From Clavibacter sp. (GTDB lineage Bacteria > Actinomycetota > Actinomycetes > Nanopelagicales > Nanopelagicaceae): DNA of 64,000 nucleotides. The notes below the pieces were generated by a model. The model saw only the letters and a program-made list of their open reading frames with translations. It was not told the origin of the DNA and did not search any database. The DNA lies in the NCBI GenBank assembly GCA_003569145.1, contig BGOH01000003.1, positions 1 through 64,000 of the forward strand, given 5' to 3'. Shown piece by piece: positions 32,168 through 38,135 of this stretch (the stretch's first letter is position 1; the number at the start of each line of letters is the position of its first letter). Both the position numbers and the translations under genes were made by a program.

Positions 32168-33774
32168 ATGGCAGAAACAAGCACACGTGCTCGGAGAGAA
32201 TCTGGCGATCTATCTGCATTGCTACTTCCTGAGTTAAGAAAAATTGCAACTAATCTAGGTATCGAAGGCGCAGCAGAGTTAAAAAGCCTGACCTAGTAAC
32301 AGCAATCACCGACCTGCAGGCCGCTAACCGCGAAGCTGCTAAAGCTGAACGCGAAGCAAAGCGAGCTGCAAGGAATCAAAAGCGACGCGACAACAATTCA
32401 AATGAGACAGCATCATCCGATAGTGATGATGATCAAGATGAGGATGAAATGCCTTCAGATAATTCAAGTAATAACTCTAATAATTCAAACAACAATAATT
32501 CACGAGATAACTCGCGAGGCGATAGAGAGTGGCGCAGAGATCGCCACCGCGATAGAGGCCGTGATCGCTTTAGAGATAGGGATCGCTCAAACCGCGGAGA
32601 GCGCGAGATAGTTTTAAGTGAAGATGATGTACTTCTTCCAGTCGGGGGCTTGCTAGATATTCTCGATAACTATGCATTCCTTCGAACCGCCGGATATCTT
32701 CCTGGTCCAAATGATGTTTATGTATCGCTACAGCAAGTACGCCGATATGGCCTTAGAAAAGGCGATGTAGTAACCGGACAGGTACGTCAAGCGCGCGAAG
32801 GAGAAAAGAGAGAGAAATTCAATGCTCTAGTTCGCCTCGACACTATCAATGGCATGGAGCCAGATAGTTCAAAGGAAAGAGTAGATTTCTCAAAACTTGT
32901 TCCACTCTATCCGCAGGATCGTCTACGTCTTGAAACTCTTCCAAATATCTTGACTACTCGCGTTATTGATTTGATTGCCCCGATTGGTAAAGGTCAACGC
33001 GGATTAATTGTCTCCCCACCAAAGGCTGGAAAAACTATGGTGCTGCAGGCAATTGCTAATGCCATTACAACTAATAATCCAGAGTGTCACTTAATGGTTG
33101 TTCTAGTTGATGAGCGCCCAGAGGAAGTTACTGATATGCAAAGATCAGTAAAGGGCGAAGTAATTGCATCAACTTTTGATCGCCCTGCAGATGATCACAC
33201 CACCGTTGCTGAACTTGCTATTGAGCGCGCGAAGCGATTGGTCGAGCTAGGTCATGACGTTGTTGTTTTACTTGATTCAATTACTCGTCTTGGTCGTGCT
33301 TACAACATCGCAGCTCCAGCATCAGGAAGAATTCTCTCCGGCGGTGTTGATTCCGCAGCTCTTTATCCGCCAAAGAAATTCTTTGGAGCGGCAAGAAATA
33401 TTGAAGATGGCGGATCACTAACTATTTTGGCAACAGCTCTAGTTGAAACTGGCTCAAAGATGGATGAAGTTATCTTTGAAGAGTTTAAAGGAACTGGAAA
33501 CATGGAGCTTAAGCTGGATCGCAGATTTGCTGATAAGCGCATCTTCCCAGCAGTTGATATCGATGCATCTGGAACTCGTAAGGAAGAAATTCTTATGGGT
33601 CCTGAGGAGCTAAATATTGTCTGGAAGCTACGTCGAGTTCTACACGCCCTTGATTCCCAACAAGCACTTGAACTTCTCCTTGAGAAGATGAAGGGCACAA
33701 AGTCGAATTCTGAATTTTTGATGCAGGTTCAAAAGACCACCGTTGGTCCTGATCAATCCCCGAAGGGGGAGTAA
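32168..33774 (+). CDS. rho: Transcription termination factor Rho (frameshifted in this sequence)
   Basis: Hexameric RNA helicase that ends transcription. The first ~40 residues ([20 protein letters not shown]) are in a different frame; restoring one A in the A run at ~32281-32285 gives [13 protein letters not shown] and joins them. Then comes an ~90-residue low-complexity insert rich in Asn, Asp and Arg, the RNA-binding domain ([18 protein letters not shown]), Walker [33 protein letters not shown] and the Q-loop region. A long acidic/basic insert between N-terminal subdomain and primary RNA-binding site is common in actinobacterial Rho. It is followed by rpmE-prfA-prmC. Confidence 0.95.
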
Positions 33775-35336: not shown

Positions 35337-36206
35337 ATGAGCATCAAGCAGGTTCTAAAAGATAAAAAGACGCAATTTGCATCTGCTGGAATTTCAGAGG
35401 TGGATGCTGAATTAATCTTGGCATTTGTACTAGGCGTTGAACGTATGGAACTTCATGCAAGAGATTTTGATTTAGAGCTTGAGCAAGTCGAACTCCTTGA
35501 TGAGCTAATCACAAAGCGAATTTCAGGAAAGCCAACCCAATACTTAATTGGGCATGCTCCATTTAGGTATCTAACTTTTCAGGTAGGACAGGGCGTCTTG
35601 ATTCCAAGGCCGGAGAGTGAGGCTTTAGTTGAAGCAGCACTTATTGAGATTGAAAAAATTCACTCAATGCAGGGCCAATCAAGTAAAACGCCAGTAAGCG
35701 TTGTTGATTTAGGTTCAGGTAGTGGCGCACTTGCCATCTCCGTTGCCCATGAGGCAGAGCAGAAGAATTGGCCAGTCACTGTTGTCGCTGTGGAAAAATC
35801 AGATGAAGCTATTAAGTGGCTTAAGCGCAACATTGCAGCCTGCGATGTCTCGGTTCGCGTTATCTCTGGCGATGTTTTGGAGGTTCTAGAAGGGGTTAAG
35901 TGCGACATTGTTATTGCAAACCCTCCCTATGTCCCAGATGGCGATAAATTGCCAGAGTTAGTCATTGAAAATGAACCAAGAGAGGCGCTCTTTGGTGGTG
36001 GAGCTGATGGTCTTGAGATTCCGAGAAGATTTATTAAGGCTGCATCTATCTTATTAAAGCCTGGCGGTCTACTGATTATGGAACACCACGAGAGTCAATC
36101 TCTCCTACTTGAGGCTGAGTTAGCAAAGGGCTACTCTGAGATAAATCTGAATCGTGATTTAAATAATCGTCCAAGATGGATCAGCGCTAGGCGAGAGGCA
36201 GAGTAA
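35337..36206 (+). CDS. prmC: Release factor glutamine methyltransferase PrmC
   Basis: Methylates the glutamine of the GGQ motif in RF1 and RF2. The 289-residue protein has the family's N-terminal helical domain, the SAM-binding VVDLGSGSGALAIS and the NPPY catalytic motif in IVIANPPYVPDGDK, preceded by PRPESEALVE. Its TAA stop overlaps the ATG of the next gene (TAATG), suggesting coupling. Confidence 0.96.
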   Translation: MSIKQVLKDKKTQFASAGISEVDAELILAFVLGVERMELHARDFDLELEQVELLDELITKRISGKPTQYLIGHAPFRYLTFQVGQGVLIPRPESEALVEAALIEIEKIHSMQGQSSKTPVSVVDLGSGSGALAISVAHEAEQKNWPVTVVAVEKSDEAIKWLKRNIAACDVSVRVISGDVLEVLEGVKCDIVIANPPYVPDGDKLPELVIENEPREALFGGGADGLEIPRRFIKAASILLKPGGLLIMEHHESQSLLLEAELAKGYSEINLNRDLNNRPRWISARREAE

Positions 36207-36859
36207 TGGCAGAGAGATACTCGCTAACCGATGGCCTAATTGATAGTAATGAGTTAATCGAAAGAGCAGTTGCCTCTCTTCGAGATGGCAAGCTAATCAT
36301 CGCCCCACTTGAACATGGATATGTGTATTTAGCAGATGCCTTCAATCATGGCGCAGTAAAGAAAATTCATAAACTACGTCAATCTCCACCAGCAACTGCG
36401 GCGCAGGTAATAGTTGGAGATGTAAAAACTGTAAAAGGTATTTCTCTCCAATTCGGTGAAACAATTACTGCGCTTGCAGAAAAATTCTGGCCCGGTCTTT
36501 TAACTATTAATCTCACCCCTGCTCAAGGTTTAGTCTGGGATTTGGGAGATGCAAGAGCCTTAAATGAAATTTCAGTTCGAGTGCCAAATGCAGAATTTGT
36601 TCGAAGCGTTGCACTTGCCTCAGGTCCACTAGCTGTTGGAGCAGCCTGCCTATCTGGAAGACCTGTTCCAAGAAAATCTACTTTCTTTCCAGCTTTAGAT
36701 AGTGATTATGCAGCGCTCTTTGATCTAGGTGAACTGCCAGAGGGGCCAAGCTCTACCGTTATTGCCATTGAGCAAGAAGGGGCAAGGCTTGTTCGCGCGG
36801 GAGCAATATCACTTGCCGACTTGCGCTCTGTTTCTGCCAATATTTCAGTTCCCGCCTAG
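36206..36859 (+). CDS. Divergent TsaC/Sua5 (YrdC)-family protein with altered active-site motifs
   Basis: Sua5/TsaC makes threonylcarbamoyl-AMP for tRNA t6A. The position after prmC and the length (217) match the actinobacterial gene, and VWDLGDARA, FWPG and SSTVIAI align with it. However, the usual PTDTVYG is PLEHGYVY, the KGR..MP segment is KLRQSPPAT, and the SSANISG ligand loop is GAACLSG. Three substrate-contacting motifs are thus changed without frame disruption; the DNA reads smoothly. Either a canonical enzyme exists elsewhere and this is a paralogue with another role, or the lineage tolerates an unusual active site. I therefore give no gene symbol. Confidence 0.7.
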   Translation: MAERYSLTDGLIDSNELIERAVASLRDGKLIIAPLEHGYVYLADAFNHGAVKKIHKLRQSPPATAAQVIVGDVKTVKGISLQFGETITALAEKFWPGLLTINLTPAQGLVWDLGDARALNEISVRVPNAEFVRSVALASGPLAVGAACLSGRPVPRKSTFFPALDSDYAALFDLGELPEGPSSTVIAIEQEGARLVRAGAISLADLRSVSANISVPA

Positions 36860-36869: not shown

Positions 36870-38135
36870 ATGTCAGAGACTTTCTTCGGTCCAGATTTCC
36901 AAGCCCTACAGGGACAAGATCCAGAAATTGCTGCAATTTTAATTTCTGAACTTGATAGGCAGCGCCAGAACCTGCAATTAATAGCCAGTGAGAATTTCAC
37001 ATCTCCAGCTGTTCTTGCTGCTCTTGGTTCAACTCTTTCAAATAAATACGCTGAAGGCTATCCAGGAAAGCGCTATTACGGAGGATGCGAAGAGGTTGAT
37101 AAGGCTGAAGTAATTGGAATTGCAAGAGCTAAAGAATTATTTGGGGCTGAACATGCAAATTTGCAACCACACTCAGGAGCAAGTGCCAACGTTGCGGTTT
37201 ATCAAGCTTTCACAAAGCCTGGAGATACCGTTCTTGCTATGTCTCTTCCACATGGTGGTCATTTAACCCATGGATCTAAAGTTAATTTCTCTGGTAAGTG
37301 GTTTAACGTTGAATCATATGGAGTAAGGCAAGATAACGAGTTAATTGATTATGACGAGCTTCGCGATATCGCGCTACGAGTAAAACCAAAGATGATCTGC
37401 TCAGGAGCCACTGCCTATCCAAGCTTGATTGATTTTAAAACAGTTAGAAGTATCTGTGATGAAGTTGGGGCAATTATGTGGGTTGATGCAGCTCACTTCA
37501 TTGGTTTAGTTGCTGGAAAAGCTATTCCTTCGCCAGTTGAATATGCAGATGTTGTTTCATTTACTACCCATAAAGTTTTAAGAGGTCCTCGAGGTGGAAT
37601 GATTTTGAGTAAAGCTGCTCATGCATCCGCCATTGATAAAGCAATATTTCCAGGGATGCAGGGCGGACCAATTATGAGCGCGGTAGCTGCAAAAGCTATA
37701 GCCCTAAAAGAATGTGCCACACCGCAGTATCAGGCCTATGCCAAGCAAGTAATTGTTAATGCGAAAGCACTCGCAAAGTCCTTAGAGGATGAAGGAATGA
37801 GAGCAGTATCTGGGGGAACAGAGACCCACCTAGCCCTCATAGATATTCGCTCAACTGGGGTTAATGGAAAAGTAGCAGATGAAAGATGCGGCCGAGCTGG
37901 AATTTCACTAAATAAAAATGCCATTCCTTATGATCCAGAATCACCTGCGGTAACAAGTGGAATAAGAGTCGGAACGCCAGCAGTGACTACGCAAGGCATG
38001 GGCACCGAGCAGATGCCAGTGATTGCTTCTTTAATCGCTCGCGCCATTAAAGATGGAGAAGATGAGGCAAAGATTGCTCAGATTCGTAAGGAAGTAAATG
38101 CACTAACTGCAAAGTTCCCTGTCTATCCAGCCTAA
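36870..38135 (+). CDS. glyA: Serine hydroxymethyltransferase
   Basis: Interconverts serine and glycine while charging tetrahydrofolate with one carbon. The 421-residue PLP enzyme has [42 protein letters not shown] and the PLP lysine in [14 protein letters not shown]. Length and motifs are standard. The ATG of the next gene starts at the last base of its stop codon region, so the wecA-like gene is co-transcribed. Confidence 0.97.

Follow-up and report, generated by a model that had tools for sequence, protein, structure and literature searches.

TC-AMP synthase occurs almost universally, and the described forms closest to the gene analysed here are the single-domain TsaC, in actinobacteria linked to prmC, and the two-domain Sua5 or TsaC2. 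In yeast Sua5 the catalytic residues are stated as required, and few species had both TsaC and Sua5 in a survey whose hits were filtered on the KxR/SxN tetrad (PMC10321239). A TsaC paralog, YciO, lacks TsaC function in vivo, and its role is unsettled (PMC12506659).

The window, i.e. the whole stretch of 64,000 nucleotides analysed, comes from the family Nanopelagicaceae (acI), an abundant freshwater bacterial group; among the papers searched, none mentions Nanopelagicaceae together with Sua5. The protein under study (window protein) shares with TsaC the prfA-prmC-TsaC-glyA/wecA locus, a similar length, the fold and the kept FWPG, WDLGD, VRxP, ST and RxG motifs. Unlike TsaC, however, the copies of the family have the equivalents of T33, K56, R58 and N145 replaced (in the window protein S143 as well), and the window protein scores below the equivalog cut-off and co-occurs with a complete Sua5. 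Its fold is also that of the catalytic domain of Sua5/TsaC2, which provide the closest solved structures, whereas the Sua5_C domain and the catalytic tetrad are absent and the true Sua5 of the genome is encoded by a separate gene. Like YciO it is a TsaC paralog of the same fold with modified active-site motifs, maintained beside a working TC-AMP synthase; unlike YciO it belongs to a separate clade and has other motifs, another gene neighbourhood and no markedly basic charge. YciO is the nearest precedent, and the window protein may work like such a paralog outside the YciO clade.

With a probability of roughly 75%, the window gene is the ancestral actinobacterial TsaC, still at its original prmC-glyA locus, whose job has been taken by a two-domain Sua5. 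That the window protein is not the main TC-AMP synthase of the genome can be regarded as very probable, and displacement of the positional TsaC by a long Sua5 as probable.

The positional gene and its altered active site

The genes and motifs concerned are, in window coordinates:

35337..36206, + strand, prmC (release factor glutamine methyltransferase), TIGR03534 220.7 bits, over cut-off; ancestral synteny
36206..36859, + strand, divergent TsaC-fold protein (probably a displaced positional TsaC), 217 aa; open reading frame, PF01300, AlphaFold2 model
36305..36325, + strand, PLEHGYV, residues 34-40, in place of PTDTVYG; catalytic T33 gone
36368..36406, + strand, H55-x-L57-R58-Q-S60 ... A65-A66-Q67, in place of KGRGRDMPxP
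36479..36496, + strand, EKFWPG, residues 92-97, holding the kept structural motif FWPG
36635..36658, + strand, VGAACLSG, residues 144-151, in place of VSSANxSG; SxN half of the ATP tetrad gone
36752..36757, + strand, S183-T184, kept, S181 equivalent, substrate pocket
36794..36796, + strand, R197, kept, R195 equivalent, substrate pocket
36870..38135, + strand, glyA, 10 bases downstream of the 36206-36859 gene; ancestral synteny

The reading frame at 36206-36859 starts with ATG, is uninterrupted and shares one base (36206) with the end of prmC. Its product matches PF01300 with 81.5 bits (E 6.8e-23; curated cut-off 25.1), which together with the coordinates bears out the sequence-only reading of a TsaC-fold gene between prmC and glyA. 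In the profile search PF01300 was the only domain above cut-off and PF03481 (Sua5_C) was absent, and with TIGR00057, the NCBIfam TC-AMP-synthase equivalog, the window protein reaches 106.3 bits versus a cut-off of 123.2 bits. Elsewhere in the window, rho (32168-33774) apparently starts at 32168 rather than at the listed ATG 32449; near 32280-32285 an A-run is one base short compared to five close relatives (L361-L365) and the frame is broken, which suggests that this genome has an error of assembly or sequencing here.

The seven catalytic residues are those listed in PMC10321239, in Pa-Sua5 numbering. They were assigned in the window protein by alignment to solved Sua5/TsaC2 sequences and relatives, and the pocket contacts likewise derive from sequence homology. 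Five of the seven are changed (T33 to H37, K56 to R58, R58 to S60, S143 to A146 and N145 to C148) and two are kept (S181 as S183, R195 as R197); in the family, four or five are lost. Instead of the KxR/SxN tetrad and T33, R58-Q-S60, A146-A-C148 and H37 are present. In the PLEHGYV segment E36 and Y39 are near-invariant in the family and position 37 is H or N in most members, whereas in the KGR-equivalent segment R58 and Q67 are near-invariant and position 60 is mostly D, being S in the window protein.

The sequence-only reading had described three altered motifs amid otherwise preserved fold motifs. Of the latter, FWPG, WDLGD and ST are kept, and the former hold in substance, but the register of the KGR motif has to be corrected: KLR is two residues off, the true equivalent being R58-Q-S60. 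An alignment that preserves length and includes T. maritima TsaC2 (KLKERP) rules out K56-L-R58 as KxR; the catalytic Lys aligns with R58 and the catalytic Arg with S60, and K56 is not conserved in relatives.

Occurrence of the two copies in Nanopelagicaceae

The window genome (G000; 1.08 Mb, 8 contigs, 81% complete) encodes a second, canonical long Sua5 (G000:C7:26638-27186) with the motifs PTETVYG, KNRPASHP and APSANRYG, a Sua5_C domain, 171-173 bits for PF01300 and 180.7 bits for TIGR00057, over the equivalog cut-off. TsaE, TsaB and TsaD are grouped on contig C6, each over its NCBIfam cut-off, so that every gene that had been proposed for a genome-wide search was found. Since two-domain Sua5 and TsaB/TsaD/TsaE are present, t6A can be synthesized without the window protein, and a missing t6A pathway is ruled out. 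The earlier suggestion of a different route to t6A in this lineage is right insofar as a two-domain Sua5 at another locus is present, but not beyond that, TsaB, TsaD and TsaE being ordinary.

PF01300 is present in 192 of 201 family genomes and in all 99 with at least 90% completeness and at most 5% contamination. Complete genomes of the family are available (e.g. IMCC25003, CP015603), and in each of the 17 single-contig genomes a weaker copy accompanies a high-scoring long Sua5. This weaker copy is found in the order prfA-prmC-X-glyA-wecA in nearly all family loci fetched, and prfA-prmC-X-glyA/wecA synteny likewise holds for nearly all family and outgroup loci. Altered motifs occur in the positional copies of 17 of 17 genera, and seven other assemblies of the same genus encode an identical or near-identical protein (96-100%). 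Both observations rule out chance and also a sequencing error, the objection that had been raised in advance. Nor is the change special to this genome: the whole family has the altered copy, and partial versions occur in several further Actinomycetes families that carry long Sua5.

In some well-covered but fragmented assemblies (G007, G121, G133, G139, G145, G176 and others) the weaker copy only was detected. The usual neighbour gene of long Sua5 is also missing in 13 of the 14 such assemblies tested, which points to assembly gaps; given in addition the position of the locus beside variable glycan-type genes and the uniformly positive single-contig genomes, a gap is judged likelier than true absence of long Sua5. 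G054 does have the neighbour gene, with island-type genes after it, and in G003 of the same genus island-type genes lie between the neighbour gene and long Sua5. At L346-L357 the family long Sua5 usually adjoins a conserved small secreted-type gene and also lies beside highly variable genes (epimerases, glycosyltransferases, polysaccharide-type ABC); the locus would seem to be the edge of a variable island. At one locus (L205; G011, genus g12) a single contig carries long Sua5 right next to the short copy, which is among the most divergent (PFLHTHI, FANANLIG).

Long Sua5 and motif loss across Actinomycetes

As outgroup, 66 genomes were searched with PF01300. TsaC was scored as intact or broken on T33, K56, R58 and N145 together, and presence or absence of long Sua5 was entered by hand, 30 genomes with the long copy unfound but possibly missing being left unscored. 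TsaC is intact in 34 of 34 genomes scored as lacking long Sua5, with none broken, and broken in 75 of 84 scored as having it; these figures count genomes rather than events, Nanopelagicaceae being one clade. They fit enzyme displacement. Nine genomes (families f14, f17, f19, f27 and f31) keep an intact TsaC beside long Sua5, so that displacement is permissive and not obligatory. On a proxy species tree from PrfA and PrmC, which has many weak branches, four supported independent pairs are available; 2.6 of them agree on average and none runs in the opposite direction, and the sign test of long Sua5 versus motif loss is not significant with so few independent pairs.

Outgroup genomes with short TsaC only keep the canonical motifs, and families with long Sua5 show partial erosion, e.g. 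f27 (PTESxYA, variable R58 position), f23, f32 and f5. The displacement is thereby traceable stepwise across Actinomycetes, from intact TsaC over partly eroded copies to a new family-wide consensus. In L327 (G341, family f14), where long Sua5 is present too, TsaC is canonical except that the catalytic Arg is lost (KGGGREAP); this may represent an early stage of the same process. In family f22, two genomes (L194, L344) carry a further short TsaC-type gene right next to the canonical one; its motifs are KGRPGSK and LVPG.

A tree calculated without the motif columns places the family positional copies outside the YciO clade (support 100) and outside long Sua5. Most of them form one group, with genera g6 and g15 nearer to outgroup positional TsaC. 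Long Sua5 of the family makes up a single clade (99). A further group (95) unites the long copies of f1, f5, f23, f27, f31, f32, f19, f25 and f2, and those of f14, f17 and f30 lie apart from it. This topology would fit one early gain of long Sua5 in part of the class followed by later separate gains elsewhere, or transfer among lineages.

The AlphaFold2 model of the window protein (pLDDT 93.4, pTM 0.90) predicts an intact TsaC-like fold. Its best structural match is T. maritima TsaC2 (9dsq, Z 26.8), and the Sua5/TsaC2 structures 9dsq, 9dsv, 3aje and 6f87 (T. maritima TsaC2, archaeal Sua5) range from Z 25 to 27, followed by YciO (1k7j, 22.2), TsaN (22.0) and YrdC (19.6). Tree and model, both suggested along with the sequence-only reading, thus separate the protein from YciO and put it closest to Sua5/TsaC2. 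The name L-threonylcarbamoyladenylate synthase, which automatic annotation gives to these genes, is probably incorrect, and a filter on the KxR/SxN tetrad would miss displaced copies like the window protein.

Conservation of the pocket and alternative readings

The median dN/dS of the positional copy is 0.070 (60 same-genus pairs; Nei-Gojobori, own script), compared to 0.101 for prmC and 0.026 for glyA, and this ratio indicates strong purifying selection on the copy. Apart from a few poor assemblies (in G048 prmC and glyA are split as well), the copies examined have an open frame. Continuous frame, low dN/dS and retention throughout the family confirm that the gene is maintained and not decayed, as had been stated from the window.

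The prmC-glyA copy has acquired a new family consensus, P-x-E-[HN]-x-Y, R-G-D...A-A-Q-V and A-S-A, in which E36, Y39, H55, L57, R58 and Q67 are near-invariant across genera, Y39 being conserved in canonical TsaC too. The equivalent of T33 is H or N in 79 of 83 family sequences, that of K56 is R in 78 of 83 and that of R58 is D in 60 of 83, and R195 is represented by Arg (R197) in all 81 sequences that reach this position. Column entropy within the family is 1.29 for the pocket versus 1.97 for the background (P about 0.001), whereas in canonical TsaC, where the pocket is far more conserved, it is 0.25 versus 1.45. The columns equivalent to R58 and N145 are fairly variable in the family (entropies 1.77 and 2.26), and part of the pocket change could therefore be simple relaxation. 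Charge was considered as a hint of RNA binding: its mean is about -5 for the family positional copies, which are less acidic than canonical TsaC (-10) but not basic.

With a long Sua5 in an ancestor, TsaC would have become redundant for t6A. Its TC-AMP synthase activity would then have been lost and the ATP half rebuilt (E36, H37/N, H55, R58, usually D60, Q67), with two of the three substrate-half residues (S183, R197) kept, and the native TsaC would have remained in its operon, maintained by selection and with its pocket rebuilt in part. As the catalytic residues stated as required in yeast Sua5 (PMC10321239) are lost, the window protein is most likely no longer a TC-AMP synthase. Judged from its sequence, its most likely present role is that of a YciO-like paralog whose old cavity takes up a nucleotide or a small molecule with a carboxylate group, although any particular new ligand could be named with low confidence only. 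The new ligand proposed by the sequence-only reading is plausible in view of the family-wide pocket consensus, and has the standing of a suggestion. More tentatively, and with slightly less than even odds, the displaced TsaC may constitute a PF01300 subfamily of its own, the rebuilt pocket of which (E36, H37/N, H55, R58, D60 and Q67 plus the retained S183 and R197) would bind or transform a ligand other than ATP and threonine, and this function would be universal in acI.

Alternatively, a catalytically dead TsaC could be kept without any new ligand as a partner of Sua5, of TsaB/TsaD/TsaE or of another translation factor, regulating t6A. The fold predicted as intact, the partly kept substrate pocket, the full t6A machinery in the same genome and the overlap of the start codon with the prmC stop codon would agree with such a role, yet much of the new conservation (E36, Y39, H55, R58, Q67) is at or beside the active-site motifs, and the operon position, being ancestral, is uninformative on a new partner. 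This alternative is considered unlikely.

It is still less probable that the window protein is an active TC-AMP synthase in which R58 and new residues replace the KxR/SxN tetrad, which would give two enzymes per cell. YciO weakly makes TC-AMP in vitro, yet is without TsaC function in vivo (PMC12506659), and the window protein has retained the fold and many residues of TsaC, the equivalents of S181 and R195 included. Against this, the five changed catalytic residues are reported as required (PMC10321239), they are kept wherever the positional enzyme is the only one, and the score is below the TIGR00057 equivalog cut-off.

Relaxed decay, i.e. a redundant gene drifting to loss and conserved by shared ancestry and operon position only, would account for some variable catalytic columns and for faster evolution between genera than in Sua5 or prmC (44% identity versus 62% and 54%, respectively; glyA 83%). 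It is nevertheless very improbable: besides the median dN/dS of 0.07 and the frame open in closed and nearly all other genomes, the gene is kept in 17 of 17 closed genomes of a lineage with small, streamlined genomes, pocket columns are above background conservation and the new residues are near-invariant.

A YciO ortholog moved into the TsaC locus would share the PF01300 paralogy, the altered motifs and the fold seen in 1k7j, but this identity is ruled out by tree and motifs, the actinobacterial YciO-like copies forming their own clade (100) with PTDSGYA and RxLDxKHHF, unlike the window protein, and the family keeping FWPG, WDLGD and positional TsaC synteny.

Some family genomes contain a third, still more divergent single-domain PF01300 copy away from prmC (L198, L199, L200, L201, L202, L204). 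These third copies carry the motif [AG][ILV]E[NS]xYV, and six of them form a fully supported clade.
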